DNA of 64,000 nucleotides, taken from contig NC_019904.1 in the NCBI RefSeq assembly GCF_000325705.1, positions 3,102,001 through 3,166,000 on the forward strand, read 5' to 3'. Origin of the DNA: Echinicola vietnamensis DSM 17526 (GTDB taxonomy: Bacteria; Bacteroidota; Bacteroidia; Cytophagales; Cyclobacteriaceae). The position numbers and the translations under genes are program-made. A model generated the notes under the pieces. That model had not been told where the DNA came from and did no database searches. It was given only the letters and a program-made list of their open reading frames with translations. This document shows positions 2,933-41,375 of this stretch, in pieces (positions within the stretch are counted from its first letter, which is position 1; every line of letters begins with the position of its first letter).

Positions 2933-3322
2933 GCAGGGGGGCCAATCGTAGAAGGAGGCTTTATGGTGTGAGGACACACACTATGGAAGTATAGTTGGGG
3001 TCAAGCAGAAAAACTGGGGGAAAGGCTGGCCGGATGGAGATAATGATGAATGATTGACGTTTCTATCCCCAAAGCTCCCACCCGCTGCCAAGTCGGCCTC
3101 CCCGCATTTATCGATTTCAACTTTTTCTCTTCTCTCAGCAGCGGTTTTTCCACCACCGGTGGACAGGTTTTGGTTACTTTTTTCACCAGCAGAAAAAAGT
3201 GACAACGTCAAATAGAGAAATTCCCCCTAAAGAGGAGTTTTTCTCCACTTCCCAATCCTTAGGCCTGGTCGGAAATCCCTCGCCCCCCAGAAATATGGCT
3301 TGATCCCTGTTTTTCCAAACCG
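2933..3322. repeat. Intergenic segment made of dispersed repeats and hairpins
   Basis: No gene. Around 2999-3021 lies a copy of a ~23-base dispersed repeat (core AGCAGAAAA then a G run) also found near 12310 and, inverted, near 40453. A 5-bp stem with 3-base loop lies at 3150-3162 (CCACC-ACC-GGTGG). A long imperfect hairpin at 3173-3203 (GTTACTTTTTT ... AAAAAAGTGAC) could terminate transcription in either direction. Confidence 0.5.
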
Positions 3323-27200: not shown

Positions 27201-28307
27201 TCAGGAAATCATAAATGGTTTAGGCGTGAAGCAAAGGATGAAAATAAGGATCGCCAGCCAGCCTAGGATTTTTCGGCCGGTACTCAGTTTGGCGGTATCT
27301 CGGACCGGTGGATGCTCAAGTCCCAAGACTCTGCCCAAAATAAAAGCGTACAATAGCCATCCTTCGTATCCTTCCAGATGGGGAAAGAAGAAGAGCAAGG
27401 TATACTGTAAAGCAACGATGGTAACGGCAAGGGCGAGTTTTGTTTGGGCCTTGAATATGGATTTTTGAAAGCAGATATAGATAAATCCCACGTATAGTGG
27501 CAATGCGATGAGCAAGTAGCTGGAGTCCATGTAAGGATTTACCACTCCCAATCCCGCAAAGAATATAAAGGCAATATAAAAAACATGGGAGATCGGTTTG
27601 TGATATTTTGGGAACAGGCCGAATATAATGTGTCCTCCATCCAACTGTCCTATGGGAAGGAGGTTTAGGGCGGTAAAGAACAAGGCGAGATAGCCAGCAA
27701 ATAGATAAGGGAAGTGGATGACTTCCATCATATTGGGCATTTTGTCAGGATCAGCCAGCGTTTTTTCCATGGCATAGAAGAGGAGGTTTTGGCCAAGTTC
27801 AATATTCAACACCCCTTCTTGGTCTGGGGAGTAATCTGGATCCAGGTATTCCGGGTGGATTTCGTAAATGAAGTCAGCTTCGGGAAGGTGGGTAAAGCCA
27901 TAAAATAAAACCCCTAGTGCTACCAAAAAGCCTGCAATAGGGCCAGCCACACCAATGTCGAAAAACTTCCGCCTGCTATTGACGAAAGTTTTCATTTTAA
28001 TAACAGCACCCATGGTGCCGATGGATGGCGCGCCGATAAAGCCAAACCAGAAAGGGATGAAGAATGGTAATGAGGCTTTGACATTATGCTTGATGGAGGT
28101 AAACAGGTGTCCTAGTTCATGGATGAGCAAAATCCCAATAAAGGGAATAGAGAATGTCATGGACTGAAGAAAGTAATTCCATGTCAGCGGTTTTTCACTG
28201 GATATCACACTTCTTCCGAAGAGCCATTCTCCTCCTGCCAATGTCGTACAAATGAAGGTTAGGATGAAAAATAATGTATGTTTTAAGTACTCTTTTTTAG
28301 TGTACAT
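27201..28307 (-). CDS. Site-2-type (M50) intramembrane metalloprotease
   Basis: 368 residues. Multiple helices carry the zinc motif HELGH (H63, E64, H67) and the second conserved motif NLLPIGQLDGGHI, with the aspartate ligand. GPIAGFLVALGV is typical of the S2P family. Rather than RseP-like, it resembles the plant EGY/bacterial group without PDZ. It probably cleaves membrane-bound regulators; no anti-sigma factor is adjacent. Its start overlaps the HAD gene stop by 11 bases. Confidence 0.87.
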   Translation of the reverse strand: MYTKKEYLKHTLFFILTFICTTLAGGEWLFGRSVISSEKPLTWNYFLQSMTFSIPFIGILLIHELGHLFTSIKHNVKASLPFFIPFWFGFIGAPSIGTMGAVIKMKTFVNSRRKFFDIGVAGPIAGFLVALGVLFYGFTHLPEADFIYEIHPEYLDPDYSPDQEGVLNIELGQNLLFYAMEKTLADPDKMPNMMEVIHFPYLFAGYLALFFTALNLLPIGQLDGGHIIFGLFPKYHKPISHVFYIAFIFFAGLGVVNPYMDSSYLLIALPLYVGFIYICFQKSIFKAQTKLALAVTIVALQYTLLFFFPHLEGYEGWLLYAFILGRVLGLEHPPVRDTAKLSTGRKILGWLAILIFILCFTPKPFMIS

Positions 28308-28929
28308 CCGAGAAATAATCCATTAATGCATTTGGGTGATTGATATGGACTGTGCGCAGCCCCACTTTTTCGGCTCCAATTAAGTTGGGAGCCGTATCAT
28401 CGAAAAATACACCTTTTTCGGCTGGCATCCCTATTTTTTCCAGCACTTTTTCATAAATGACTGTGTCCGGTTTTCGGCAGCCCATTTCATGGCTTAAAAA
28501 AAGGTGGTCGAATAGTCCAGAGAAGCTTGTTTCTCCCGTGTCTGCCAGCAAAATTTCCTCCACCCTTTTGAAGTGGATACTATTGGTATTGGAGAGCATG
28601 TACACCGGATGTGTCTTTCGGAGGTCTTTTAGGAGCTTGATTTTTTGTAGCGGGATGTTTTTCAGCATTCCATTCCAAATTTGATCGATTTCCTGATCAG
28701 ACCATTGTTGGTTAAACGTTTTTCTGATTTCATTCCTAAAGACAACATCGCTAATCTCTCCCTTCTCAAAAGCGTGGTGCACTGGGTGTGCCATGAAGTC
28801 TATAGACTGATGGTTACCATTGCTTTCCAGTAACTTTCCTAATTGGTTGACGGTAAAGGGAATGTCCAAGTCAATGATGACACCTACAAGGTCAAATACA
28901 AAAAAATCGATGTTTTTATCTATTTTCAT
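28297..28929 (-). CDS. HAD-superfamily hydrolase (YihX/haloacid dehalogenase-like)
   Basis: About 210 residues from the ATG at 28929; a TTG at 28986 would add 19 residues of unlikely sequence. Motif I is FFVFDLVGVIIDLD with nucleophile Asp and no second Asp at +2, as in the YihX/epoxide-hydrolase N-domain branch. Motif II is VYMLSNTNSIH, and motif III/IV is GCRKPDTVIYEKVLEK then GVFFDDTAPNLIGAEKVG. It is probably a sugar-phosphate phosphatase. It overlaps the downstream protease gene and so is co-transcribed with it. Confidence 0.87.
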   Translation of the reverse strand: MKIDKNIDFFVFDLVGVIIDLDIPFTVNQLGKLLESNGNHQSIDFMAHPVHHAFEKGEISDVVFRNEIRKTFNQQWSDQEIDQIWNGMLKNIPLQKIKLLKDLRKTHPVYMLSNTNSIHFKRVEEILLADTGETSFSGLFDHLFLSHEMGCRKPDTVIYEKVLEKIGMPAEKGVFFDDTAPNLIGAEKVGLRTVHINHPNALMDYFSDVH

Positions 28930-29064
28930 AAGGGCAATTGTTGTTGTTTTGGAATCAAATATGTAACATTGCAGTCCCAAAAGCAAGGAAAAATGTTTGA
29001 AGCTTCCAAGAGGTTAAAGACATGAGGTTTTTACGGAAAACCAGACCAAAAGATTTGCTTTATC

Positions 29065-29138
29065 GGGCCTATAGCTCAGCTGGTTAGAGCACTTGACTCA
29101 TAATCAAGGGGTCCCTGGTTCGAGCCCAGGTGGGCCCA
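29065..29138 (+). tRNA. tRNA with CAU anticodon (Met or lysidine-modified Ile2)
   Basis: A complete cloverleaf: acceptor stem GGGCCTA/TGGGCCC with discriminator A, D-arm GCTC...GAGC, anticodon stem CTTGA/TCAAG with loop CTCATAA, and T-arm with TTCGAGC. The CAU anticodon leaves elongator Met versus Ile2 open. The 3' half (29097-29139) is supplied by the integrated element and exactly matches the copy at 39583-39625, so the gene stayed intact after integration. CCA is not encoded. Confidence 0.95.
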
Positions 29139-29139
29139 C
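29097..29139 (+). repeat. attL: 43-base direct repeat (tRNA 3' end)
   Basis: Identical to 39583-39625 over 43 bases, starting inside the anticodon loop and running one base past the discriminator. Flanking bases differ on both sides, so these are the exact limits of identity. Confidence 0.93.
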
Positions 29140-29147
29140 TGAAAATC

Positions 29148-29183
29148 AGCCACTTACGATTAAAAATTGTAAGTGGCTTTTTT
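29148..29183. terminator. Hairpin terminator behind the tRNA(CAU)
   Basis: Perfect arms AGCCACTTAC and GTAAGTGGCT are followed by a T run. It belongs to the element side of attL and could end both the tRNA transcript and, in reverse, the HTH gene at 29227. Confidence 0.7.
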
Positions 29184-29209
29184 ATTTGCACACGATTTGC
29201 ACACAAAAT
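29184..29209. repeat. Left arm-type repeat (recombinase/excisionase site)
   Basis: 26 bases identical to 39444-39469, itself two tandem TTTGCACAC units. Its position just inside attL and the copy just inside attR are what is expected of the arm sites of tyrosine integrases (inference). Confidence 0.6.
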
Positions 29210-29226
29210 AGGGTCAAAAAATATTT

Positions 29227-29568
29227 TTAAATTTTCTTAAAACTCCTGTCCTTGAGGCGACCATTTTGGTGATACCTCACTCCTCTTAACTTGGATGCTG
29301 TTGGTTTGGAAGTAACCCACTCCATGATTTCATCTTTGATAAAATAGAGTTTTCCGGCCTTCTTATAATAAGGAATTTGACCTTTGGAAACATAACTATA
29401 GATGGTCTGTTTTTTAAGCTCTAGAAGCTCACAGATTTTGTTTAGTGTAAGAACCTGACTATCGGTCTGATTCGTCAATTCTGTACCTTGTATAGCCTCT
29501 AAAATAAGCTTGTTTTGTTCTATAAGGTGGGTAACGGCTTGAGGTAGGTCTTCGAATTTTAGATCCAT
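29227..29568 (-). CDS. Excisionase-like helix-turn-helix protein
   Basis: 113 residues. N-terminal helical stretch (~1-35), then a MerR/HTH_17-type winged helix: VLTLNKICELLELKKQTIYSYVSKGQIPYYKKAGKLYFIKDEIMEW. This is the domain used by Xis-like proteins of Bacteroidota integrative elements. The C-terminus is basic (KLRGVRYHQNGRLKDRSFKKI). The gene lies immediately inside attL, opposite the end that holds the integrase, and probably controls excision directionality. Confidence 0.75.
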   Translation of the reverse strand: MDLKFEDLPQAVTHLIEQNKLILEAIQGTELTNQTDSQVLTLNKICELLELKKQTIYSYVSKGQIPYYKKAGKLYFIKDEIMEWVTSKPTASKLRGVRYHQNGRLKDRSFKKI

Positions 29569-29850
29569 AGAATATTATATTTTTGGGGAAGGCGGATAGT
29601 GCAAATTTTATGATTGAAAAATTCACCAGTTCAACAGTAGTAGGGTGAATTTTTCAGGGTAATATAAAAATGGCAATTCAGAAATAATCACACTGGGATC
29701 AGTGGAATGGAATTCGATATTATCCAAAATCAATTTGATAGGGTGCAACAATAATTAGGATGGACCTAGGCTTAATTTATTTGACTGATTTTAAGTTTAA
29801 AAAAATAAAACACTTATATCTATAATGTTACGTTTTTCCCAATAAACTTT
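29569..29850. other. Short gene-free stretch in the element
   Basis: 282 bases holding the inverted repeat at 29615-29656 and AT-rich sequence. No ORF of note. Confidence 0.4.
29615..29656. promoter_or_regulatory. Long inverted repeat upstream of the excisionase-like gene
   Basis: 13-base perfect arms (TGAAAAATTCACC and complement) separated by 16 bases lie 47 bases upstream of the HTH gene start. It may be an operator, a recombination accessory site or an RNA hairpin in its leader. Confidence 0.5.
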
Positions 29851-31005
29851 TTAGATGAAAAGTTGCATAAAAACATTATTCCATTCTACTTTTTTCCAAT
29901 CAATTTCAATTTTAATGTTTTTCACGCACCATTGTCTAAGTTCATCAACATCTACCTCACCAGGGCTAAAATCCCATTTACAAATACCATTAATCAGGAA
30001 ATTTAATTTATCCCCATTAACAAGAAACCACTCAATTATCCGGTTCGTTTCACTATTTTTTAGTTCTAAAGCAACAGTTTTAGCAAGATTTTTAAACCTT
30101 TCAAATTCAATAGGGTGGTGATCAGGAGAATAAAGTATGTCTACTACCGAATTGATGTTCATTATCTCAACGAAATCACCATGTGTTTCTTCTTTAAACT
30201 CCTTAGTAAGCCATGGTAGAATAAAATAATGGCAACCATTAGTATTATTATTAATTTCCTTCCCATGCCTAATTACTCTATTAGGAGAGAAAACCCAATC
30301 TTTTTTACTGTCCAGAGTGATAAAAATTGCATTTTTTGATTCACGCAACTTACAGTTTTCAATAACTTCCCTCCAGATCATTAAATCTCCAAATTTATTT
30401 TCTGTTTTTGATTCATCTTCAAAACCAGGTGGTATTCTATGATTGTATCTGAACTCATTATATTCTAAGTTTTTAACTAATTCTGAAATGTTGCAGTTAC
30501 TTTGAGCATTTTCCACTAATTTCTCTATAAAGCTTCTTCTTTTTTCATTCTTATAGTTGTTCTTATGTGTCAAAAGGTTGATCTTTTGTCTTAAAGATTC
30601 AGTTTCGGATTTTATTTCGGACATGAAATTATGCTTATTAGTAAATCCATTCCTTTTTGAAAATTCATTATCTGCTATTAAAAGCCCCATCTCTTCAAGA
30701 TAAGAAATCTCTTTTTCAAGGGATCGTAACCTCTTCTTAAATGGGTAAAATACATGTTCAGAATAATTGTTCAACAATGAATTATATTCATGAATTACCC
30801 AATTTGGAATAACTAACCTTTTGTTAGATATTAGGTTACCTAAAAATATTTTAAGTTCTTTAAATGATTCTGTGTTTAATCGATAAATCCAGATTAAAAT
30901 GTTTGTATCTAAAAAGACAAGATCATTTCCATCTCCCGTTAGAAGTATTCTAGAAACAATTGATTGGCGCTTATCATGATCTACGATTTCAGGAATTACT
31001 TTCAT
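29851..31005 (-). CDS. PIN-like domain protein (PIN_8/DUF4935 type), probable nuclease
   Basis: 384 residues. The PIN acidic residues are visible: LVFLDTNILIWIY (first strand DTN), VIPNWVIHEY (second acidic), PPGFEDESKTENKFGDLMIWREVI and AIFITLDSKKDW (third and fourth). The insertion PPGFEDESKTENKFGD is characteristic of the PIN_8 (DUF4935) clade, which occurs in phage-defence and related loci. The middle (~85-190) is a coiled-coil. The C-terminal ~100 residues are an extra domain of unknown type. It would cut RNA or DNA using metal ions; the target is unknown. Confidence 0.75.
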   Translation of the reverse strand: MKVIPEIVDHDKRQSIVSRILLTGDGNDLVFLDTNILIWIYRLNTESFKELKIFLGNLISNKRLVIPNWVIHEYNSLLNNYSEHVFYPFKKRLRSLEKEISYLEEMGLLIADNEFSKRNGFTNKHNFMSEIKSETESLRQKINLLTHKNNYKNEKRRSFIEKLVENAQSNCNISELVKNLEYNEFRYNHRIPPGFEDESKTENKFGDLMIWREVIENCKLRESKNAIFITLDSKKDWVFSPNRVIRHGKEINNNTNGCHYFILPWLTKEFKEETHGDFVEIMNINSVVDILYSPDHHPIEFERFKNLAKTVALELKNSETNRIIEWFLVNGDKLNFLINGICKWDFSPGEVDVDELRQWCVKNIKIEIDWKKVEWNNVFMQLFI

Positions 31006-31174
31006 TTTATTTTAAAAAAAGATTTCTACAATTAATATACTGCTAAAGATTATTTGATATATCATATTTACTTTTTTTTAAATTCACACCATCCGTACCA
31101 CCGATTTGTACAACAATAAATTAATGTTTACCTACGGACTTAAATATGTTCAGCTATTCTCTTCCCATAATTGC

Positions 31175-31744
31175 TTAGTTTCTATTGTATTGCATTTTAA
31201 TTTTTTCAAGTCCATTATATAATTTAGTTATTTTTGGATATAGCTTTTGTGTCATATATTCATCAAAACCTCTTTCAAAACCATGTTTTAATATGGTTTC
31301 ACTAAATTCTTTGTTTAATTTATCTATTAATTTACCCTTTCTTTTTGTGATAATTTTTCCTTTGTCAGTAATTCGTTTTTCGTAGTGATTTTGAAAAATA
31401 TGAGAACAACTGTGTCTTTTGTATTCTATAAATTCAAATTCAGACTCAGAGAAGAGTAATTTCAAAATTTTAAGTCCACCTATAAGTTCCGAGTAAAATT
31501 CTTTCTTCTCATGATTTTCACTGTTTTGTAGAGATTCAAATACTTTTTTTGAGTATTCCAATCCTGCAGTTACTAACTCATAAAAAACCACATAAAATGA
31601 ACTTTGGTAGATTGAATCATATTCTTTATTCAACTCACTATTCAAGTAGAAAAACTTTCTTAACCATTGACCAAATAATTCCTCATTTGCATGAGTTTGC
31701 AAAATATAGTCAAGCTTTAATCTTTCATACTCGATTTTATTCAT
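31175..31744 (-). CDS. Helical protein with Rx4H motif (HEPN-like?)
   Basis: About 189 residues from the ATG at 31744 (a TTG at 31774 would add ten residues). It appears all-alpha. RHSCSH within IEYKRHSCSHIFQ gives R-x4-H, the pattern of the catalytic motif of HEPN RNases, though the residue after R is H rather than the common N/D. It lies 169 bases upstream of the PIN-like gene, on the same strand. HEPN assignment is a hypothesis; otherwise unknown. Confidence 0.5.
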   Translation of the reverse strand: MNKIEYERLKLDYILQTHANEELFGQWLRKFFYLNSELNKEYDSIYQSSFYVVFYELVTAGLEYSKKVFESLQNSENHEKKEFYSELIGGLKILKLLFSESEFEFIEYKRHSCSHIFQNHYEKRITDKGKIITKRKGKLIDKLNKEFSETILKHGFERGFDEYMTQKLYPKITKLYNGLEKIKMQYNRN

Positions 31745-31842
31745 TATTCCGTTTTTGTCAAATCCAATACGCAACTAAAATGAGTGAGGGCCATGAGGAA
31801 GGATTTCTGAGGCTTACTTGTTGTAGATTTGATTGTGTCAGC

Positions 31843-32610
31843 CTAAGATAATATTTTTTGAGATATCCAGTTCTTAAGCTCTTTTGGATTTAATTTATTT
31901 CCTGATAGATATTCATTGACAGTCAAGTAGCCCCAAAACTCACCATTTATATATATTTTAGGAGGTGTTGTAGAGTATTCATTGAAAGGGCTTTGTGAAG
32001 AATATGTTCCCCCATAGGTTCCATATTCATTAAAAATTGATGTAGTTGAATATTGGCTACCAAAGTTTCCATATTTATTTAATACAGACTCACTATCATA
32101 TTCATTTGATGTTAACTTTCCTAAGAAAGTACCATCATCAGCTTCCAAATAAGAATCCTGCCTATTAAACTCAGATTCGAAGTTAGAATTACTTCTTAAT
32201 CTTAATATGCCACTTGGATCTGTTGTGAGTTTAGAGATAAAATTATCTGGATCAATTTTCGGATTTAAATGTCTATTTTTGGTGATATATGCAATAATAT
32301 CACCATTAATTACCAATTGTGGTGGCTGAGTACTATGTGGGTTATTTATACTATAACTACCATATCTGCTTCCGTAGGGTGAATATTTATTGAAAATGCT
32401 TGTATTACTGTATCTACTACCAAATGGTCCATATTTATTTAAGATTGAATCATTATCATATCTATTGGTTGTAATTTTGCCCAAATATTGACCATCCTGA
32501 GCCTTTAAAAAGGATTCTCTTCGGTTCTCCTGAACGTTTGACTGCTCTTCATAAAGCTCACCTAGTAGGTGCTCAAGTAACTTTTTTGTTTTATCCCCCT
32601 TATCTGCCAT
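31843..32610 (-). CDS. Internally duplicated protein with N-x-Y-G repeats
   Basis: About 255 residues from the ATG at 32610, which has a rare clear GGAGG just upstream; the frame also has a GTG at 32616 inside that SD. The N-terminal ~30 residues are helical. Two ~95-residue copies follow (roughly 36-130 and 150-255). Each has a start like GxYLGKITTNRYDxxS, then two ~15-residue units of the type NKYGPFGSRYSNTSIF, then PPxxxINGxxxxYLT and a helical end. It looks like a repeated beta-structured module. The family is unknown to me. The gene overlaps the upstream membrane-protein gene by 11 bases. Confidence 0.75.
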   Translation of the reverse strand: MADKGDKTKKLLEHLLGELYEEQSNVQENRRESFLKAQDGQYLGKITTNRYDNDSILNKYGPFGSRYSNTSIFNKYSPYGSRYGSYSINNPHSTQPPQLVINGDIIAYITKNRHLNPKIDPDNFISKLTTDPSGILRLRSNSNFESEFNRQDSYLEADDGTFLGKLTSNEYDSESVLNKYGNFGSQYSTTSIFNEYGTYGGTYSSQSPFNEYSTTPPKIYINGEFWGYLTVNEYLSGNKLNPKELKNWISQKILS

Positions 32611-32938
32611 TTTCACCTCCGTAAATATGTTCTAATAACTTTTGTATTTCTTCCGCTGCTTTATCTGGTGGTAGTTGCGTTATTATTATTGGAGCTGTAG
32701 CCAGTGCAACGTTTTTGTTTCTCAAAACTTTAATTTCTTTTAGTGGAAAATAAAGAAATCCGGTAGTTACTGCAGAAGGGGTTGACCATACTAATTCACC
32801 TGTTACTAATGCTGTAATAATACATGCAATACCAGATAGAAATAATAAAACAGTTAAAAAGAGATAAATGTTCTCTGTCCTTTTATTATCTCTCAGAACT
32901 TTATCAATCCTATCTAATATTTCTTTAGTATCTGCCAT
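32600..32938 (-). CDS. Two-helix membrane protein
   Basis: 112 residues. A short cytoplasmic helix (1-22) leads to two membrane segments (~24-47 and ~52-66). A C-terminal tail (~75-112) contains ITQLPPDKAAEEIQKLLEHIY. It overlaps the following repeat-protein gene by 11 bases, with that gene's SD within its last codons, so the two are translated together and likely interact. No family recognised. Confidence 0.7.
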   Translation of the reverse strand: MADTKEILDRIDKVLRDNKRTENIYLFLTVLLFLSGIACIITALVTGELVWSTPSAVTTGFLYFPLKEIKVLRNKNVALATAPIIITQLPPDKAAEEIQKLLEHIYGGENGR

Positions 32939-33126
32939 TTAAAAGATTAATGTGCCACAACAACACTTCTATATCGTCACCTAGAACTAGTGCGTGGTAT
33001 ATCTTATATTTTTATTTCTATCAAATCAGTCCCCCCTATCACTAAGCCATTTGTGTAAAATAAAATTTTATTTAAACATTTATAATTGAATATATTCTCT
33101 AAATCTAAGCAATGCCTAAAACATAA

Positions 33127-33149
33127 AAAATACCCATATAGGGTATTTT
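33127..33149. terminator. Bidirectional hairpin after the XRE gene pair
   Basis: AAAATACCC-ATATA-GGGTATTTT with T or A runs on both sides works as a terminator in either direction. A second hairpin (GTTAAAAAC ... GTTTTTAAC) lies at 33162-33193. Both lie between the HTH operon (ending 33229) and the membrane-protein gene. Confidence 0.55.
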
Positions 33150-33228
33150 CGTTAAAATCATGTTAAAAACTTTCTATTGTTGTGGTTTTTAACATTTTTA
33201 TTTTCATAATTGATTTAAAAGCATAAAA

Positions 33229-33501
33229 CTAATTCTCATCCTTTCCCTCGAAATAATTCTGCGTGTAAATTGTCCGGCTGTGTGACCCAAAATTATAATT
33301 AATACTTTCAGCAAGTTCTAAAAGGTATCTCGGGTTAATATTATACAAATCCCCAAGCTTGGCCGCTTGCAAAATATCTAATCTTTTTCCTCCATTTTCA
33401 ATCTCTAGGTAGTCTTCTACACTTGAATCAATCTTGGCGGCAACTTGATCGAGATCGTACTTAAATTCTTCTCGTAGCTTTCTTAAAAGTGTTTCTTTCA
33501 T
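33229..33501 (-). CDS. Small XRE-type helix-turn-helix protein
   Basis: 90 residues. EFKYDLDQVAAKIDSSVEDYLEIENGGKRLDILQAAKLGDLYNINPRYLL is a Cro/CI-type HTH with a shortened N-terminus. The tail INYNFGSHSRTIYTQNYFEG is shared with the upstream neighbour (INYNSGKYSRSIIAANTY). It lies six bases downstream of that neighbour, so the pair is one operon. It may modulate the repressor or respond to a shared ligand. Confidence 0.65.
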   Translation of the reverse strand: MKETLLRKLREEFKYDLDQVAAKIDSSVEDYLEIENGGKRLDILQAAKLGDLYNINPRYLLELAESINYNFGSHSRTIYTQNYFEGKDEN

Positions 33502-33507
33502 TCTTTA

Positions 33508-33927
33508 TTATTTTATTTTCTCTGTAAGCGCTGTTATTAAATTGATAAGGTTCTCTCTTTCTTTTCGTAATTGACTTAACTCCTTTACCAAATGGTCAAT
33601 CTGAATTTCCTTTTCCTTTATAATACGCTTAAAAAGTTCTTTTGAGTCTGTTTTATTAACCTCTTTATAAGTATTTGCAGCAATTATGGATCTGCTATAT
33701 TTTCCTGAATTATAATTAATGGTGGGTAATTCATCCGAAAGAAAATAATCCGGTCCTACTTGGTAAAACTCAGCCAATTGCTTTATCCGATCAATCGTCA
33801 ATTTGGTTTTTCCAGATTCAAGATTAGAATAGGTTCGCTGATGCATATCTAGCTTATTGGCTACATATTCTTGACTAAAGTCCTTGGACTCCGGTAGTAT
33901 CCGCATGATTTTTTGAGCGTTTTGCAT
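33508..33927 (-). CDS. XRE-family repressor with coiled-coil tail
   Basis: 139 residues. The HTH spans ~15-70 (FSQEYVANKLDMHQRTYSNLESGKTKLTIDRIKQLAEFYQVGPDYFL). Then comes the INYNSGKYSRSI motif shared with the next gene, and a coiled-coil tail (~100-138) probably for dimerisation. It is divergent from the XRE gene at 34119, with a palindromic operator at 33964-33982 between them. This layout suits a switch regulator for the element. Confidence 0.75.
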   Translation of the reverse strand: MQNAQKIMRILPESKDFSQEYVANKLDMHQRTYSNLESGKTKLTIDRIKQLAEFYQVGPDYFLSDELPTINYNSGKYSRSIIAANTYKEVNKTDSKELFKRIIKEKEIQIDHLVKELSQLRKERENLINLITALTEKIK

Positions 33928-33963
33928 AGCGAGATCGATAAAAGTTGCTAAACCTGAAAAGAA

Positions 33964-33982
33964 ATGTTCTAGGTTAGAACAT
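33964..33982. promoter_or_regulatory. Palindromic operator between divergent XRE genes
   Basis: ATGTTCTA-GGT-TAGAACAT, a perfect inverted repeat, lies 37 bases upstream of the leftward repressor start. Half-sites (ATGTTCTAGG) recur at about 34848-34857, after the rightward operon, and ATGTTCTA occurs again near 32628 just upstream of the repeat-protein gene. Confidence 0.65.
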
Positions 33983-34118
33983 ATTCCTTATTACAAACTA
34001 AGCCCATTCTTCTGATCTTTATGAATAAGGAAATCTTTAAGCTAAAGATAACAAAGAAATTTAAGTATTGGAATTTATCAGGCAACAATGAACCAAGCAC
34101 TATCCAAATTTAGACATT

Positions 34119-34526
34119 ATGAATGATGGTAATCCTTTCCAAGATCAGCTTCTTGACAATCACTCGATTGGTCAAAACTTGATGGCCTTTAGAAAGCTAA
34201 GGAATCTTAAAGCCTTAGAGGTTGCCGATCATCTGGGCATGTCAGAAGGCAATTATACAAAGTATGAGCGTGGGGAGAATAAAATCACCACAGAAATCAT
34301 TAAACAATTTTCACAGTTTGTGAAGGTTAACCCAATACATATCCTTACCATCGAGCCTGGTCATATAATTGATTTTTTTTATGGACTTGAAAAGAGAAAA
34401 GATATGATGGACAAGAATCAAATAGAATCCTTGATCCTTATTTTAAAGGAGCTTAAAGAGAGTAACGATTCATTGAAAGCCATGTTAACAGATCCCTTAG
34501 TTTCACCTTTAATAAACCAATCATGA
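34119..34526 (+). CDS. XRE-family helix-turn-helix regulator
   Basis: 135 residues. The HTH runs ~18-75: IGQNLMAFRKLRNLKALEVADHLGMSEGNYTKYERGENKITTEIIKQFSQFVKVNPIHIL. A helical tail follows (~90-130). It is divergent from the repressor at 33927 and overlaps the next gene by four bases (ATGA). It is likely the counter-regulator in a bistable switch or a cargo-specific regulator. Confidence 0.75.
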   Translation: MNDGNPFQDQLLDNHSIGQNLMAFRKLRNLKALEVADHLGMSEGNYTKYERGENKITTEIIKQFSQFVKVNPIHILTIEPGHIIDFFYGLEKRKDMMDKNQIESLILILKELKESNDSLKAMLTDPLVSPLINQS

Positions 34527-34849
34527 TCAATATCCAAAAAGACGAACTTATCAAAACCCTAATACTCCAAGACCTTAAGCATTGCCAATTACTTTTCGGA
34601 TTGGATAAACTTAATCTGGATGCAGGTTATTGCCATTTTCTTAGTATACTGGATCTGATCTCTAAGTTGATGGAAATATCAGATGATGATATAAATGATT
34701 TTAATGAAACCTATATGATGTTTATGGATAGATGCATTCACTATCCCCTATCTACTATGGGTGAAGAACTAAAGCCTTTAGCTGAAGAGTGCTATATGGC
34801 CTTGACTGCAATTCAAAAAGAGGTGCCTACTGGAGAACTAAAGCCCTAA
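34523..34849 (+). CDS. Small acidic helical protein, unknown function
   Basis: 108 residues, all-alpha by appearance, acidic, no motif I recognise (DLKHCQLLFGLDKLNLDAGYC, DDINDFNETYMMFMDRC). Translationally coupled by ATGA overlap to the XRE gene, so it is probably its partner or antagonist. Confidence 0.6.
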   Translation: MINIQKDELIKTLILQDLKHCQLLFGLDKLNLDAGYCHFLSILDLISKLMEISDDDINDFNETYMMFMDRCIHYPLSTMGEELKPLAEECYMALTAIQKEVPTGELKP

Positions 34850-35568
34850 TGTTCTAGGATAATTATTTTTTCAGAGGTAATATTTCCCTGTACTATTTAA
34901 TTGACCCTACTGTTTCTTTTTACCTCTTGGATGCCACCTTATGAAGCGAAGGGTATTGGTCAAGGGTGCTGACGTAAGGAGGCATTTACCTGCCCTTGAG
35001 GAATAGCCTAAGCAAAATACCTTTGCATTCTAGAGGGAAAAGATCGAAAAATATTCACTTTTAAATAATAGAGAAAAATCCGCCGTTGAAGGATTTTGTT
35101 CCCATGATAGAAATGGGAAATGCAAGATTGGAATGGCGTCAGACATTCCTACATCTTGCTGATGTCCTGAACAACTCCGTGTAATACCATAAGGTTAAAA
35201 GTTCTCTTTGTTGACCAAGGTTCAGATTCTGGTAAAAATGAGAATGGTTTTCAATTTTACACTCTCCCTAAACGCTTGAGAATTTGAGTATTTGGGAACT
35301 TGATTTTTCTAATTTATCTCAGGTTTTTAGCCATCAAAAGGCTGCGAGTCCCGAGCACCTTTCCCCGACTTTGGAAGCTGAAAAGATGGTTTTGTATACA
35401 AAACTACATCTTGCTGTAGCCATAATTCAGGATTATTTTTAACTTCATTCTCAATCTTACAGACAGTTTATCTTTAAATGTAGCTGGCTTTTTTTCATCA
35501 TACCATGGTTAATTGCAAGAAAATCTAAAAGATTTTCTTGAAGAAATGATTGTATCGGTTATTAGCTG
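34850..35568. pseudogene. Gene-free stretch with probable decayed coding sequence
   Basis: 720 bases without a complete gene. On the plus strand three short open frames read like protein but sit in different frames. 35065-35184 contains MGNARLEWRQTFLHLADVLNNSV. About 35192-35277 contains KVLFVDQGSDSGKNENGF. 35272-35442 contains HQKAASPEHLSPTLEAEK and ends HLAVAIIQDYF. I cannot name the parent gene; this may be a frameshifted remnant or coincidence. Confidence 0.3.
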
Positions 35569-37011
35569 TTAAACATTTGTTTTAAGAAAAAAATCATCTA
35601 AAGCTTCTTTCATTTTTTTATTATCTACTGTCAACACTTCCTTCCTGATGTCACTTGGTCCAAAATAATTCAAGGAGAATTTTGTTGAATTGTCTTTCAT
35701 GTTCTTGAGCATCGAAAGTGCAACACTTGAAAAACCACCAATTGACCAATACTCAAATTTTATTTTTTTCTTTCTCCATGTCTCTTGTTTCGAAACCCAT
35801 TTTCTAAATGCAGGTAGTTTTACTCCTAACCATCTATCAATAGTTTCCGAATCAATCATCGATTTAGTTGCTTTACATTCCGCAATTAGCACTTCATCAG
35901 GATATACGGCAAGTACATCGATTTCGTGTCGAGCCTGGTCTACTACTATTTCTCTTCCAATATCTATGCTGCTATTTGTTTTAGTTGAATGGATATGTCC
36001 AACCAAAAATTCAAACAGGGCTCCCCTTATATTATTTACTAGGCCTTCGTTGTATTTTTTTAATTCTTTAAGAAGATCCAAATACTTATCAGGAGTCTTT
36101 TTCAAACTGGCTCCTGCGTTGTTTAAAATTGAGATTAATTCGTTTAATGATTCACTGTACTTTTGCCCAAATAACTCCTTTACAATACCAACAACAATAC
36201 CGTTTCTTTTCAACTGTATTAGTGCTTCCTTACTCAAATCATCAACTATTAAAAAGGGTAATATATTTGATGAATTCTGAAATGAGTTGATTTTTTTTAA
36301 TTTATCAACAAAAAACAGGATGTCATTTTCATTAATTGAGGTTCCAATTACAATATCAGCTAATAGAAACCCACTTTTTTTATTTTGTGTCAATCCCGAA
36401 ATAGCAGAAGTGCCCTTAAATGCCCACCTGAACTTTCCAAATTCAGAGAATTTTTCACCAGAGTTATAAGAGATCATTCCGGTGTTTCTAGTAAGGGAAT
36501 GAAAGTTATCTAAAATATCAACCTTAATTGCTTCAATAGTTCTTAAATAAAAAGTATTGGGAAACTGCTTTAAGAGTTTTGGAGAAAAATAATAGTCAGT
36601 GCCATCAAATACTAAGATATCTGATTTTACAAAATTCTGCATAACCTCTTTGAAGGGGATATGACTTTTTAATGGAGCAACTGGATAGTTGGTGTAACAT
36701 TCGAGGAACCTTTGACTAATCACCCCTCCATGAAGGTTTACAGCGTTTAAGCAATACCAATACTTTCTTCCGGAATCATATAAATTTGTACTCAATGACT
36801 TTAATAAAGTATCAGTTAATGCATGCTCTTTAAGAAAGCATAAAGATTGGCCACTTACAAAAAAACCCTTAATGCGTTCGATTTCTGAGCTTCTGACTAT
36901 TCTTTGGCTAGCGGTGTTGTAACTAAGAGACTCTTTTGATGCAATCTCTTTGGAAAGCTCACTTGATAACAATGGCCCCTTTGATTTTAAAATGGCTTCT
37001 ATCGATGTCAT
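35569..37011 (-). CDS. Winged-helix protein with C-terminal PD-(D/E)xK nuclease domain
   Basis: 480 residues. The N-terminal ~140 residues look like two winged helices (IEAILKSKGPLLSSELSKEI, SYNTASQRIVRSS), as in AbiEi-type or restriction-associated DNA-binding proteins. Residues ~330-400 contain GALFEFLVGHI, then ARHEIDVLAVYPDEVLIAECKATK: an E, a D after HEI and E-C-K, the catalytic pattern of PD-(D/E)xK nucleases. WLGVKLPAFRKWV follows. A perfect palindrome 17 bases upstream of the start suggests autoregulation. It may be a stand-alone defence nuclease. No methylase is nearby. Confidence 0.7.
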   Translation of the reverse strand: MTSIEAILKSKGPLLSSELSKEIASKESLSYNTASQRIVRSSEIERIKGFFVSGQSLCFLKEHALTDTLLKSLSTNLYDSGRKYWYCLNAVNLHGGVISQRFLECYTNYPVAPLKSHIPFKEVMQNFVKSDILVFDGTDYYFSPKLLKQFPNTFYLRTIEAIKVDILDNFHSLTRNTGMISYNSGEKFSEFGKFRWAFKGTSAISGLTQNKKSGFLLADIVIGTSINENDILFFVDKLKKINSFQNSSNILPFLIVDDLSKEALIQLKRNGIVVGIVKELFGQKYSESLNELISILNNAGASLKKTPDKYLDLLKELKKYNEGLVNNIRGALFEFLVGHIHSTKTNSSIDIGREIVVDQARHEIDVLAVYPDEVLIAECKATKSMIDSETIDRWLGVKLPAFRKWVSKQETWRKKKIKFEYWSIGGFSSVALSMLKNMKDNSTKFSLNYFGPSDIRKEVLTVDNKKMKEALDDFFLKTNV

Positions 37012-37367
37012 ATGGCGCTATATATAAATAACTCTTTAGAGTTATGCAAGATTTTCTTTTTTTTAAATTTTTATTGATTCAGGAACTGCATGAGGTCTAT
37101 TCGAATTTTGAAACTAGCGAAAAATAGTAAATATCCTGTCATATCAATTTTTAAAATCTACATATAATATCATTGAAATGCTGCTATGCGATAGATTTTT
37201 ATAATCACTTAATTGTAGATTATTTTCTGGCACAACCTAATAATCAAACTAGAATCAATGTTAAAAACCATGAACTTACGCTAAATAAGCAATAGGAGGC
37301 ATGGGGCATTTTAGCTACCAATTTTTGAATTTTCATCCATTATACAGAAAATAATGATGTTTGTAAT
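37012..37367. other. AT-rich intergenic region in the element
   Basis: 356 bases with no ORF of note. Apart from the palindrome at 37028-37045 I see nothing distinctive. Confidence 0.4.
37028..37045. promoter_or_regulatory. Perfect palindrome upstream of the nuclease gene
   Basis: ATAACTCT-TT-AGAGTTAT, 17 bases before the ATG at 37011. The position over the leader or promoter fits an autorepressor site, possibly bound by the winged-helix half of the nuclease (inference). Confidence 0.55.
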
Positions 37368-38102
37368 TTAAAATTCATCTATTGTTATTGGGTCTAAATT
37401 AAGCTTAACTGCTAATTTGTTGTATATTTTTAATGAGTTATGCCAGTTACCACAACATTCAGGACTAAGTGCAATCGTTAAAACTTCAATTTTATCTCCC
37501 TCCAAATAGCTATATTGAATTTGATCAAAAAGGATGTCTATAGCTTCATCTGAAAAGCACTGAAAATAGGAGTTGTTATAACTCAGAAAAAAGTAATCAA
37601 TATCAAGGTTTAGGATTATTTTATCCTCTGTATTGCTTATTACAAATTCTAAATTTTCAAAGATTGAAAATGCATTCAACTCCTCAACCTTACCTGGATA
37701 AAATGCCTTTATTCCTGAGGTACCTTTACGATGTGTGTAGAATAAATAGGAGGTGACATTTGAACCACAAAGCCTTTCGAAAATTGGGAGGTAATTGTCC
37801 CATCTAATTGTCTGAAATTCAGAAGCTCCTAAATTGTGCTTTATTTCATAAAATTCATTAATAGTTAAATCAGTAACATTATCGGGAAGGGAATTCATCC
37901 AAAGCTCCATATTGGAAGCAAGAGTGTCATAATGTTTGTCAATATGAATTACTGTATACTTCTGATTAGGGTTAAAGTGCTGCAACCAACACCATAATGC
38001 TGCTCCATGATTATCCATCACATAAAAGTTAAATGATTTATGAAGTATGTTAATGTCGTAACATCCAGAATAATCAAATTTTTTATGAATCAATTTTATC
38101 AC
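37368..38102 (-). CDS. UPF0489-family protein
   Basis: 244 residues starting at GTG. Conserved points of the UPF0489 (C5orf22-like) family are FYVMDNHGAALWCWL, YTVIHIDKHYD, IILNLDIDYFF and ALSPECCGNW. The family is thought to have an arginase/deacetylase-like alpha/beta fold, with His/Asp clusters that could bind metal; no activity is established. It lies 69 bases from the integrase gene end, on the same strand, as cargo at the int end of the element. Confidence 0.8.
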   Translation of the reverse strand: MIKLIHKKFDYSGCYDINILHKSFNFYVMDNHGAALWCWLQHFNPNQKYTVIHIDKHYDTLASNMELWMNSLPDNVTDLTINEFYEIKHNLGASEFQTIRWDNYLPIFERLCGSNVTSYLFYTHRKGTSGIKAFYPGKVEELNAFSIFENLEFVISNTEDKIILNLDIDYFFLSYNNSYFQCFSDEAIDILFDQIQYSYLEGDKIEVLTIALSPECCGNWHNSLKIYNKLAVKLNLDPITIDEF

Positions 38103-38170
38103 AAAGAGAATAACTGTTTAAGGTTAATGATAAATTAATTAAATTATATTCATGTAATCATATATAAAAT

Positions 38171-39427
38171 TCACCCAAAATCCACCAAATTCCCTATCAT
38201 CTTCTTATCGCTTTCATCGTCCAAGAAACTCTTAATATACGCCTTAGTCGTCTTAATATCCGCGTGTCCTAAGGATTCTCCCACATATTCGATGGAGGCG
38301 TTATTTCGAATCGCCATTGTTGCAAAGCTATGCCTGGCAGTGTAAGTACTAACATTCTCCTTAATTCCCAGTTTTTCAGCATACCGCTTCATATGCTGAT
38401 TGACTAATCGGGTAAAGTTTTGTTTTGCTTTAAGCTTTTCTCCTTCCGCCATTTCTTTGTGAAGAATTGGAAATACATATTCTTCTCGATCGCCACTGGT
38501 TACTCCATACACTTTGATTACCTTCTTGGAATGTTCCATTAGAGGTACGCGAATAACGATTTGTTCGTCAGTAGTATCCTTGGTTTTTTCCCTCACAAAT
38601 TCCAAGAAATCACCATTAACGTTTTTCCACTTGAGATACAAGATATCCTTCATATTCATCCCTTTACATAGGTAGGAGAAAAACCAAAAGTCTTTGGCTC
38701 TTTGTTGGAATTGGTTCTCAGGTTTACCTTCAAATAATAATTTTAATTGGTGCTTATCCAATGCCTTCTTTTTATTAGTTCCCTTGGGAATAACATAGCC
38801 ATTTTTACCAAAAGGATAATGATCAGTTTTGATGGTGTTAAATATATGTCTAAGGGTTCTTAAGTAGTAGCCTACAGTAGTTTTGGAATTGCCTTTTTCA
38901 AGCATCCACTTTTCAAAATTCTTTAGCCATTCCACTGTGATATCTTGGACGAAAAGATGTTTGGGATCCCTTTTTCGATTAGCTTTAAGGAATTTCTTTA
39001 TCGACTTCACACTGGCTTCATATGTGTGTTTAGTAGCTTCCCTTTTTTCTAATTCTAAGGTCTTTATTTTTTGCTGGTACAGATAGAAAACATCTTTGAC
39101 ATCACCCTCAGGTTTAAATAAAAGATTCTCGAAAGATTCAAAGGTGAAATTGTCCAGCCTATTCGCCACCTCAATGTATTTATGTAGAAGGCTTTCTACT
39201 TGAATGCGGATTTCCTTTTCTGCTTTTCTTGGTTTTACTGAGAGGAATACCTTTTCATAGGTTTCCTTGTTCATATCTATTCCTACAGAATAGTATTTCC
39301 GTTTTTTGGGTTTTGGAGTATAAACCTTTATTTTTAAGGGATAATATTCATCTGCTTTAGTTCTTCTGGTGTCTAGGTAGATGGACATTTCGAACTGTTT
39401 TCCAGACTTGGCAAATTTCTTTTCCAT
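38171..39427 (-). CDS. Tyrosine recombinase/integrase of the element
   Basis: About 418 residues from the ATG at 39427. The frame runs open to 39490, but the extra 21 residues would translate the arm repeat, so I reject them. There is an N-terminal arm-binding domain (~1-90), a SAM-like core-binding domain (~100-200), and a catalytic domain. The catalytic domain shows box II TARHSFATMA (R365), H388 in LGHADIKTT and nucleophile Y397. At the usual box I arginine I read YLCKGMNMKDILYLKW, a lysine, as in some Bacteroidota integrases. It integrates the element into tRNA(CAU). Confidence 0.9.
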   Translation of the reverse strand: MEKKFAKSGKQFEMSIYLDTRRTKADEYYPLKIKVYTPKPKKRKYYSVGIDMNKETYEKVFLSVKPRKAEKEIRIQVESLLHKYIEVANRLDNFTFESFENLLFKPEGDVKDVFYLYQQKIKTLELEKREATKHTYEASVKSIKKFLKANRKRDPKHLFVQDITVEWLKNFEKWMLEKGNSKTTVGYYLRTLRHIFNTIKTDHYPFGKNGYVIPKGTNKKKALDKHQLKLLFEGKPENQFQQRAKDFWFFSYLCKGMNMKDILYLKWKNVNGDFLEFVREKTKDTTDEQIVIRVPLMEHSKKVIKVYGVTSGDREEYVFPILHKEMAEGEKLKAKQNFTRLVNQHMKRYAEKLGIKENVSTYTARHSFATMAIRNNASIEYVGESLGHADIKTTKAYIKSFLDDESDKKMIGNLVDFG

Positions 39428-39443
39428 GGTTAGTTGATTTGAG

Positions 39444-39469
39444 ATTTGCACACGATTTGCACACAAAAT
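39444..39469. repeat. Right arm-type repeat
   Basis: 26 bases identical and in the same orientation as 29184-29209, in the integrase leader, 16 bases before its ATG. A recombinase bound here could also repress its own gene. Confidence 0.6.
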
Positions 39470-39582
39470 GATATCAAAACTTGTAAGCAAAGTAATAAGA
39501 AAAGCAGTAAAAACAATATAAGTAACTCATTTACAGTAGTAAACAAAGTATGCTGATAATAGAAAAGTATTCAAAAATTTAT

Positions 39583-39625
39583 CTCATAATCAAGGGGTCC
39601 CTGGTTCGAGCCCAGGTGGGCCCAC
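39583..39625 (+). repeat. attR: 43-base direct repeat (residual tRNA 3' end)
   Basis: Copy of the 3' half of the tRNA(CAU), left by integration. It is followed immediately by a GC-rich terminator (AAACCCCGG-CTTG-CCGGGGTTT, 39626-39649), probably the tRNA's original terminator. Confidence 0.92.
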
Positions 39626-39649
39626 AAACCCCGGCTTGCCGGGGTTTTT
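39626..39649 (+). terminator. Original terminator of the tRNA(CAU) gene, now stranded after attR
   Basis: Nine-base perfect stem with loop CTTG and a T tract, directly abutting attR and about 10 bases before the next tRNA. Confidence 0.75.
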
Positions 39650-39657
39650 ATTTTCTC

Positions 39658-39732
39658 GGGAAATTAGCTCAGTTGGTTTAGAGCACTACCTCGACAAGGT
39701 AGGGGTCACTGGTTCGAGCCCAGTATTTCCCA
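39658..39732 (+). tRNA. tRNA-Val (GAC anticodon by position)
   Basis: Cloverleaf: acceptor GGGAAAT/ATTTCCC plus A, D-stem GCTC/GAGC, anticodon stem CTACC/GGTAG with loop TCGACAA, T-arm ACTGG-TTCGAGC-CCAGT. By position the anticodon is GAC. Position 33, almost always U, is C here. CCA is not encoded. It would have been tandem with the tRNA(CAU) before the element inserted between the 3' end of that gene and this one. Confidence 0.88.
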
Positions 39733-39740
39733 CTGATAAA

Positions 39741-39777
39741 AAGCCGCCTACAACGTAAGATTGTAGGCGGCTTTTTT
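39741..39777 (+). terminator. Terminator of tRNA-Val
   Basis: Perfect 13-base stem AAGCCGCCTACAA ... with loop CGTAAGA and a T tract. Confidence 0.8.
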
Positions 39778-39978
39778 ATTTGCACTCGATTTGGGATTAA
39801 GCCGGATAGTTGGGCATTTTACTCCAAAATGAAAATTGGCAGTTCCCCCAGGGCAAACAGTTTTAAACTATTAGTAAAGAGATGTCAGCCTGAATTAAAG
39901 AACTTCAAGTGGCTAAAAGCGATTTCCCTGATGGATATCAACATTTAGTACTAATTTCGTGTAGAGGAGCTATCATCC

Positions 39979-40339
39979 GTGCCGCTGGCACTCCTTCGGG
40001 AGGTTGAGGAGCGCTTAAGTTCCTGCGGATGAATCCGCAGGTTACAAAATTTATCGTGCCGCAGGCACTTTGCCCCGATTTGTACATTGGAAACCGCAGT
40101 AGCCTATGGTGCCGAATGGCGGAATAGGCTGAGAGAATGAGTTGTTGATTTGGACCGTACAAGCCGTCGCAGCTATCTGCTCAGGAATAGTGGTTGGCTT
40201 GGTTGAATTTATACCCTGCATATGCGCTGGCAACTGGGCATCCTGCCTAATCCGCCTTTGGCGGAGGGTCATATAGAAGGTGCAGGTGACAACCTGCACC
40301 AAGAATGATTACACACAAAAGGGTAAGTTCCGTAGGAAC
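39979..40339. repeat. REP-like array of short hairpins
   Basis: At least six perfect small stem-loops lie in 360 bases: GTGCC-GCT-GGCAC (39979-39991), CCTGCGGA-TGAA-TCCGCAGG (40022-40041), GTGCC-GCA-GGCAC (40056-40068), TCCGCC-TTT-GGCGGA (40251-40265), GGTGCAGGT ... ACCTGCACC (40279-40300) and GTTCC-GTA-GGAAC (40327-40339). Arms of 5-9 bases with 3-4-base loops are typical of REP elements moved by RAYT/HUH transposases; no such gene lies in the window. Confidence 0.6.
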
Positions 40340-40452
40340 GGCAGATACAAATGCAAATAGGAACATTTGTTTTAAAGGCGTTTGCCCTGTGGAGGATGCC
40401 CATCGTTTTAACGGAATGAAATTCTATTTCATAAGACCATGTCAACATTCGT

Positions 40453-40475
40453 CCCCCAACTTTTCTGCTTGATCC
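40453..40475 (-). repeat. Dispersed 23-base repeat, inverted copy
   Basis: Reads GGATCAAGCAGAAAA then GTTGGGGG on the minus strand. Sister copies lie on the plus strand at 2999-3021 and 12310-12332. Confidence 0.5.
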
Positions 40476-40787
40476 CATTTTAAATGATGCCTCACCCTAT
40501 TAAGTTTGAATCCAGCTAATTTGGAAGTAATTGTTCATCGTAGTTTATAACAGTTATCATAGTGAACAAAGGCATAATAGGTGTGCGTATAAAATGCGAG
40601 CAACTATGATAAACTTGATTATTCATTAAACCTATTTCATGCTTGATGTAGGATGAAACATGTGTTTTTGCCTGTCTTCTGGAAATAGGGGAGTAATCCA
40701 ATCGGGAATTTTATTTTTGATATGATAGAAAGGATTGAGATTATTTTTTGTGTTAATATCCTGATTATCAATGTTTTCATTTAAGCG

Positions 40788-40830
40788 AAACACACTTTTA
40801 GTCACGGAGCTATTCAAAAGTGTGTTTTTT
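40788..40830 (+). terminator. Orphan terminator-like hairpin
   Basis: 12-base perfect stem (AAACACACTTTT with complement), a 16-base loop, then a T run. No ORF precedes it, so it may end a small RNA or be left from a lost gene. Confidence 0.5.
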
Positions 40831-41375
40831 ACAGGTTATCTATTTTTAGCTTGCTGTATTCCCGTGGGAATAAACGCAATAAGTTATGTAATACATTGAA
40901 AACCAGTATTTTGCGTTTGTATTGTTTGCTTCTGTTTAAGAATATTTGGTTATAAATTAGGTTTATCGATTAATTATAAACCCATCATTGAACATGAAGA
41001 ACTATTTACATTCAAAACGCAGTTTTCATCAAATTGAACCTTCCTTTAAAAGGAAGAGGAATTGGAACTTAATGTTAAAACCAAGGGCTATTCCCCTGTT
41101 ACGTACCATCACCTGAGATGTATTTTTTCTAGTACCCACGCAAACAAATTCAAGAACCACAGGCTTTCCGATTGAAGTGAATTTTCATTAGTGGACTGGT
41201 ATGTCTACATGATGTTTTCTCCTGATTGTTGATGCATGTGCATTTGTTTCGGTGGGTAATACCTAATTCGGTAATCGTTGATTTTGTCAAAATAATTAAA
41301 TGTAAAATTCTGAGGTTGTTTTAACAGCCCATCTTCTCTTTATAAGTGAAGAGTCAAAAAGTTGACTGCTCCATC

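Follow-up and report, generated by a model that had tools for sequence, protein, structure and literature searches.

The window analyzed here is a stretch of 64,000 nucleotides of Echinicola vietnamensis DSM 17526 (contig NC_019904.1), part of a single-contig 5.6-Mb genome (C1:3102001–3166000), and positions given without a contig are counted from its first letter. The locus under study is a 10.5-kb genomic island at the 3′ end of a tRNA-Met gene. Its ends, integration genes, backbone and a non-coding region resembling an origin of transfer (oriT) are given below with their evidence. Ten other genomes of the genus (G001–G010) were compared at the locus, all of which retain it, and percentages for G005 and G009 are identities to related elements in those two genomes.

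29065–29139, plus strand: tRNA-Met(CAT), intact, its last 43 bases (29097–29139) forming the attL core (ARAGORN, repeat search, Rfam tRNA)
29148–29182, plus strand: terminator-like hairpin 3′ of tRNA-Met, supplied by the element (read from the sequence, BLAST)
29184–29209, plus strand: left 26-bp putative arm-type site (exactly repeated at the two island ends; also found at ends of related elements)
29227–29568, minus strand: Xis-like helix-turn-helix protein, 113 aa (HTH_17, 1.4e-12; PHROG excisionase families; 82% in the G005 element)
33229–33501, minus strand: XRE-type helix-turn-helix protein, 90 aa, backbone (HTH_3, 4.1e-6; 40% in the G005 element)
33508–33927, minus strand: XRE-type helix-turn-helix protein, 139 aa, backbone (HTH_3, 6e-13; 58% in the G005 element)
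34119–34526, plus strand: XRE-type helix-turn-helix protein, 135 aa, backbone, its gene overlapping that of p108 by 4 bases (HTH_3, 5.8e-8; 83% in G005, 87% in G009)
34523–34849, plus strand: p108, 108-aa partner of the XRE protein, backbone (homologues in 20 of 245 genomes of the family)
34850–35416, plus strand: conserved non-coding oriT-like region with blocks A (34924–35027), B (35074–35178) and C (35331–35416) (~83–91% DNA identity to G005 and G009; blocks found at mob loci)
35122–35163, plus strand: oriT-like hairpin B, predicted nick 35158/35159 (E 8.1e-17 in the window, the sequence itself being among the 17 of the model)
35381–35418, plus strand: oriT-like hairpin C, predicted nick 35413/35414, where homology to related elements stops (E 2.5e-11, also in the model)
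38171–39427, minus strand: tyrosine recombinase (integrase), frame open to 39490 (PF00589 Phage_integrase, 5.5e-16; PF13102, 4e-14; PF17293, 9.8e-6; Arm-DNA-bind_5)
39444–39469, plus strand: right 26-bp putative arm-type site (exact copies as for the left)
39583–39625, plus strand: attR core, an exact copy of the tRNA-Met 3′ end (repeat search)
39658–39733, plus strand: tRNA-Val(GAC), right neighbour of the island, separated from tRNA-Met by 32 bp where the site is empty (ARAGORN, comparison with G003)

An earlier reading of the letters alone (the first-pass annotation) had defined the island by exact 43-base repeats at its ends, with an integrase at one end and an Xis-like gene at the other, and this description was upheld: 29097–29139 is identical to 39583–39625 over 43 bp, and the integrase frame (38171–39490) and the Xis-like gene have the family matches listed. 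The lower G+C content that it reported was also found (0.27–0.36 in the island vs 0.40–0.45 to its left; values to its right are mixed, 0.33–0.51). The integrase probably starts at the ATG at 39427, because the TTG frame crosses an arm site. The 26-bp sequence, absent from the first-pass annotation, is also found in related elements of G005, G006, G007 and G009, at their ends or left end (at the left end of the locus in the last three), and suggests an arm-type binding site for the integrase and the Xis-like protein. Only the two tRNAs reached the Rfam gathering score in 28000–41000, and other Rfam RNAs there were rejected.

At the same site in the closest relative, G003 (83% identical at the locus), the spacing between tRNA-Met and tRNA-Val is 32 bp and no element is present; when the window flanks are joined at the 43-bp core, they can be aligned to this empty site across both tRNAs (332 of 413 columns identical). 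In G005, tRNA-Val is preceded by two tandem elements, of 16.5 kb and ~51 kb (L050–L053, C1:3047700–3122000 of that genome), the larger of which encodes its own PF03432 relaxase; Type I restriction-modification, SNF2 and efflux genes were also seen in it by eye. Prophage-like genes (by eye) lie at the tRNA site in G010, and other DNA was found at the site in G001, G002, G004 and G008, with no tRNA-Val in the stretch fetched. The site was therefore empty in one relative and differently loaded in others, as the first-pass annotation had proposed checking, and its reading of a tRNA-integrated mobile island is borne out by the att repeats, the intact tRNA-Met, the empty site and the other cargo at the same tRNA.

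Three further observations concern the site. In G006 (C1:4042258–4281000), tRNA-Met lies 238 kb from an att core that has a 92% identical integrase; perhaps this interval consists of several accreted elements, or a rearrangement separated them. In Cyclobacterium jeungdonense (G202), an M50 peptidase-like gene, which flanks the site in E. vietnamensis (by eye), lies ~7 kb from a 55% homologue of the island's 480-aa nuclease, and the region may therefore be a hotspot there too. Behind tRNA-Val in the window (39742–39793), a terminator-like hairpin (39742–39778) followed by ATTTGCACTCGATTTG resembles the left end of the island; the pair, which G003 lacks in the aligned stretch, may be the scar of another element.

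The 16.5-kb element of G005 shares with the island the integrase (93%), the Xis-like protein (82%), the three XRE genes (40–83%) and p108 (89%), and carries as cargo an RND efflux gene (PF00873) with its neighbours, i.e. metal efflux. On contig C30 of G009, a 90% identical integrase and the XRE-p108-oriT block enclose a SusD gene (polysaccharide utilization), and the left att end with the Xis-like gene is on a separate contig, C16. Because the XRE genes and p108 are common to three of the four genomes whose integrase shows 90% identity or more, they were assigned to the backbone. The XRE regulators had been counted as cargo in the first-pass annotation, which does not hold given their presence in the metal-efflux element and on the G009 contig; a role as defence regulators was rejected on the same ground. 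The E. vietnamensis genome has two further p108 copies (413k and 471k), in elements with relaxase genes and, by eye, restriction-like genes. These related elements (L090, C1:402k–422k; L091, C1:462k–480k) contain XRE-p108, MobC and a relaxase, and by eye also Type I restriction-modification and primase-like genes. No Pfam match was found for p108, and it was rejected as a phage protein for want of a match in 50,697 phage records.

At the DNA level, the match of the island to the G005 and G009 elements extends from ~33.7 kb to 35415–35418, though coding stops at 34849. Parts of the blocks in the intervening 567 non-coding bases (34850–35416) occur in 15 of the 245 family genomes, E. vietnamensis included. 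The hairpins in blocks B and C have a common 3′ arm ending CTACATCTTGC, and both end in CATCTTG^C, one base off the nick consensus of MOBP relaxases, which is given in PMC3772185 as (C/T)ATCCTG(C/T) with an inverted repeat immediately 5′. Nicks were predicted at 35158/35159 and 35413/35414 because CATCTTGC differs from this consensus by one base and the inverted repeat is correctly placed. The copies in G005 and G009 keep both hairpins and the block at ~83–91% identity. None of the 12 island proteins matched a relaxase, replication or secretion-channel family in Pfam up to E 1, in agreement with the first-pass annotation that relaxase and replication genes are missing. Its broader statement that there are no transfer genes stands for relaxase and secretion-channel families; it left transfer unexplained, and the oriT-like region is present.

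A covariance model was built from 17 hairpins, including the two of the island and three from relaxase loci of the same genome. In the window it gave two strong matches, both in the island (next best E 0.12). Across the genus, 150 of the 1,693–3,078 candidates per genome were scored (150 of 2,611 in E. vietnamensis), and at least 40 hairpin places were found in 8 of the 11 genomes. At least seven are in E. vietnamensis: two in the island, two at 5332k, where no relaxase was found in the 20 kb fetched, and three beside MobC and a relaxase. Among 30 genus places that were fetched, nine had mobC and a relaxase gene within 1.5 kb, three a small open reading frame (ORF) only and 18 neither; some of those with none of these genes are in or near elements with relatives of the island integrase. 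Outside the genus, 8 of 11 places were just upstream of mobC, and such hairpins precede mobC-relaxase genes in three other genera. The blocks lie 0.25–0.5 kb upstream of a small ORF, mobC and the relaxase gene at L187, L190 and L193, and 3.8 kb upstream at L186, while at L196 the distances are 0.4 kb for block A and 5.4 kb for hairpin C.

Eight relaxase loci of E. vietnamensis were found by protein search alone, and the hairpin is just upstream of mobC at three of them (C1:4918k, 1598k and 2330k) and not at the other five. The relaxases are of the PF03432 MobA/VirD2 type and the MobC proteins MobC_2/NikA-like. Hairpin B resembles those of these three loci, and hairpin C those of sibling species. 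On a relaxase tree of 23 rows the hairpin types cluster (six changes vs a shuffled mean of 10.6); the deep forks are open and the B and C types are not single clades, and the label 'none' given to L165 and L168 reflects the strict pattern used, both having hairpin-like matches. The elements at 413k and 471k were rejected as the closest helpers, since their MobC-relaxase loci (L203, L204) show no such hairpin. Mobilizable loci of the genus (L187, L190, L193, L198–L200) have the same hairpin type beside mobC and encode a relaxase, which the island does not.

We consider it likely that the island is an integrative mobilizable element without a relaxase that is mobilized in trans, a class for which a 2024 review uses the term iOriT (PMC11389934). 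The integrase and the Xis-like protein would insert and excise the island at the tRNA-Met 3′ end. For transfer, it would rely on its two oriT-type hairpins with the MOBP-like sequence CATCTTG^C, at which MobC and a MobA/VirD2-type relaxase from another element in the cell would nick it before its passage through a mating channel. Control of excision or timing is the probable role of the XRE genes and p108, and the cargo would be exchangeable, with one cargo boundary at the nick site. The att sites, the empty site, the backbone shared by elements with different cargo, the hairpins and their position at mobC-relaxase loci were observed directly; from these we infer nicking at the hairpins, helpers acting in trans and the roles of the XRE genes and p108. 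Of the features of an iOriT, an integrase, att sites and an excisionase-like gene are present, relaxase and mating-pair families are absent from the Pfam matches of the 12 proteins, and the oriT is helper-like by sequence and position only.

Several observations weigh against this reading. The nick sequence CATCTTGC has one mismatch to the published MOBP consensus. Pairing in the hairpin alignment (88.2% of cells vs 81.4% when shuffled and at most 55.2% when slid) and the number of cells with two-sided stem changes (10 vs 3.1 in shuffles, with none of 500 shuffles reaching 10) lend modest support to pairing beyond plain sequence conservation, but the cell count is inflated by related rows, and the three stem pairs with two-sided changes were equalled in 151 of 500 shuffles. 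Behind the nick, 16 of 26 loci have a second stem, variable in sequence (vs 3 of 78 in the control and 1.1 of 26 in shuffles), which was not found behind either island hairpin. Of the 30 places fetched in the genus, 21 had no mobC and relaxase within 1.5 kb, and the same is true of 3 of the 11 places outside it (L166, L177, L178). No relaxase of the C-type helpers was found in the E. vietnamensis genome, where the best match to a C-type relaxase was 49%. The XRE-p108 module is missing from one of the four genomes with a closely similar integrase, as no p108 was found in G006 (92% integrase), and in G009 no 43-bp core lies beside the integrase, so that the right end there is not established. 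Finally, the hairpin could regulate mobC instead of being an oriT; such regulation alone would not explain it, because the hairpin is also in elements without mobC.

That the stem behind the nick is not intact in the island also fits a decayed mobilizable element or cis-mobilizable element (CIME), which would have lost its relaxase, retain the hairpins as remnants and now move only in cis with its neighbours. The related G005 island does stand in tandem with the 51-kb element bearing a PF03432 relaxase, and tandems and cis-mobilization are described in PMC5704250. The same source defines CIMEs by the loss of both integration and transfer genes with att sites kept, whereas the integrase and Xis frames of the island are open and conserved; moreover, both hairpins and the block are retained in G005 and G009, and no mob gene was matched in L050 or L092, which suggests maintenance. 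We regard decay as improbable. A phage satellite packaged by a helper phage would account for the size of ~10 kb, the tRNA site and the XRE regulators, and could be connected with the PHROG families of unknown function matched by the PIN_8 and UPF0489 proteins and with the prophage-like genes (by eye) that occupy this tRNA site in G010. The PHROG matches of 10 proteins (two XRE proteins were left out) included no capsid, terminase or packaging family, the nuclease and the UPF0489 protein, like p108, had no match in the 50,697 phage records, and the nuclease and the 199-aa protein had none in viral contigs; a satellite was therefore rejected as highly improbable.

The iOriT reading gains a possible extension from the places where homology between hairpin loci ends. 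A total of 34 loci were compared pairwise, yielding 247 pairs with matches covering the nick; as the loci were chosen by their hairpin, the shared hairpin is by construction, and the point where homology ends is not. At the 19 distinct C-type loci, mean identity was 1.00 up to CATCTTGC, 0.43 over the next ten bases and ~0.3 beyond. The pairs were alike on the 5′ side only in 150 cases, on the 3′ side only in 11 and on both in 22, the remaining 64 being short or other. Matches restricted to the 5′ side ended 2–3 bases past the nick in 99 pairs and 4 to 27 bases past it in 51, and 8 of the 11 restricted to the 3′ side began 16 bases before it. Between the island and the G005 element, identity is 91% to +2, with no match immediately beyond, and hairpin B, which is passed without a break in the comparisons with both G005 and G009, serves as an internal control.

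The 5332k locus of E. vietnamensis and a mobilizable element of G010 agree over 9,847 bases 3′ of the nick with 2 mismatches, while their C blocks just 5′ of it differ and no match was found further 5′; DNA of these two genomes is 75% identical at the tRNA locus. On its 5′ side, the 5332k locus is 93% identical to a G008 locus as far as +2. These almost identical ten kb (L184 in E. vietnamensis; L190, C1:1155k, in G010) contain cation ATPase-like and NhaA-like genes by eye, and are, to judge from the sequence, the product of a very recent transfer.

These breaks were observed directly, and recombination or joining at oriT is their simplest reading. Whether the oriT nick is itself a recombination joint, at which a relaxase-mediated exchange between two oriTs or a joining linked to mating swaps the 3′ side, seems to us evenly balanced; the island would then be a mosaic in which one half is fixed and the other exchanged, a view to which we give the same weight. 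Such a joint would explain the fall in identity past the nick, the clustering of end points at 2–3 bases past it and of starts at 16 before it, the two origins of the 5332k locus and the break between the island and the G005 element. PMC3264647 describes relaxase-catalysed oriT recombination for TrwC and the ICEclc relaxase; it also calls this uncommon and known for few relaxases, and a relaxase of the present family is a putative maker of the joint. Against a joint, too, the same breaks could arise by insertion with a preference for the 3′ side of such hairpins, only one end of the exchanged blocks could be placed, the shared hairpin follows from how the loci were chosen, and the 51 pairs ending farther from the nick do not fall at one point. 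More tentatively still, and somewhat on the doubtful side, this may be one of a family of relaxase-less islands in which the oriT works twice: as an address for two relaxase groups, and as a site-specific joint through which the 3′ part, cargo included, is exchanged between hitchers and helpers.

The remaining genes of the island are its cargo, as follows.

29851–31005, minus strand: PIN_8 domain protein, 384 aa (PF18476, 4.3e-50; relatives in 37 plasmid records)
31175–31774, minus strand: RHxxxH (Rx4H) protein, 199 aa (homologues; no Pfam match)
31843–32616, minus strand: internally duplicated beta-repeat protein, 257 aa (no Pfam match above cut-off)
32600–32938, minus strand: 112-aa protein with hydrophobic stretches, whose frame and that of the repeat protein overlap (ORF list; membrane nature by eye)
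35569–37011, minus strand: winged-helix and PD-(D/E)xK nuclease, 480 aa (fold and E-D-ExK residues)
37368–38102, minus strand: UPF0489 family protein, 244 aa (PF12640, 6.2e-9; phrog_32422, 1.8e-34)

The first-pass annotation had named a PIN-like nuclease and a winged-helix PD-(D/E)xK nuclease, both of which proved correct (the former by its PIN_8 match, the latter by its fold and E-D-ExK residues); the UPF0489 protein was absent from it. For its Rx4H helical protein, the motif stood, with R120, H121 and H125 invariant in three homologous sequences in agreement with Rx4-6H, and the fold was not established, as there was no Pfam HEPN match and the AlphaFold 2 model was unusable (mean per-residue confidence, pLDDT, 51). 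A second copy of the Rx4H gene (80%) is at C1:4665437–4666012, in a cluster (L136, C1:4656500–4675500) with HEPN_Swt1, DUF5343 and TIR genes, beside an apparently interrupted gene. The best plasmid match of the beta-repeat protein is annotated '4-fold beta flower protein', a term for which the open-licence literature returned nothing.

The PADLOC search (2023) that had been proposed for the cargo gave no full-length match to a named defence protein. Its best cargo match, CARF4--CARF_PDDEXK (1.8e-4), spanned residues 276–389 of the 480 of the nuclease; the cargo matches were weak and to this protein only, the CARF_PDDEXK matches covering only residues 276–390, and its other matches were the XRE genes; in the model of the nuclease, ten-residue means were <70 throughout residues 151–350. 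Genes for AbiEi/AbiEii, HEPN, TIR and DUF262 proteins neighbour relatives of the nuclease. Relatives occur in 307 plasmid records, and some are on very small plasmids. On two of these, from Klebsiella and E. coli (L141 and L142; 4.7 and 5.7 kb), the homologue is by far the largest annotated gene. Among the open-licence matches listed on small plasmids, none contained the phrase 'anti-phage defence'. From AF1548 (1y88) and the Card1/Can2/Cdn1 nucleases the protein differs by its N-terminal winged-helix-like part.

Cargo for defence is plausible on these sequence features. That it forms one defence or competition system, as the first-pass annotation suggested, is unlikely. Its nuclease-type proteins, the neighbours of the second Rx4H copy and those of the nuclease relatives speak for such a system; against it, nuclease relatives were found in 6 of the 245 family genomes (two weak and partial), the repeat protein in two and Rx4H in two, with E. 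vietnamensis the sole overlap. As these three searched genes do not travel together, they look like separate units.

Mobilizable genomic islands (MGIs) with oriT mimicry copy the oriT of a helper and are without transfer genes. The present island is set apart from them, by description and not by oriT sequences, through its other phylum, tRNA-Met site and MobA/VirD2-type helpers. With iOriT elements, as described in PMC11389934, it has in common an integrase and an oriT, the absence of a relaxase and the need for a helper, and it differs in its Cyclobacteriaceae host, its two hairpins of two types in one element, its backbone of three XRE genes and p108 and its putative cargo joint at the nick. 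The class of relaxase-less, oriT-bearing islands is therefore known, while this family and the nick-site joint look new; the open-licence literature matches listed contained no report of such islands in Cyclobacteriaceae.

It has long been asked how genomic islands that lack transfer genes move, and a searchable model of hairpin plus nick ties this island to likely helpers in the same genome. The cargo also offers a single-gene candidate to be tested for defence, from an unnamed family of winged-helix PD-(D/E)xK nucleases that is found widely on plasmids, very small ones among them. The predicted nick gives a concrete, testable place of cargo exchange; if this exchange is real, conjugation itself would assemble new combinations of cargo, without a transposase or homologous recombination.

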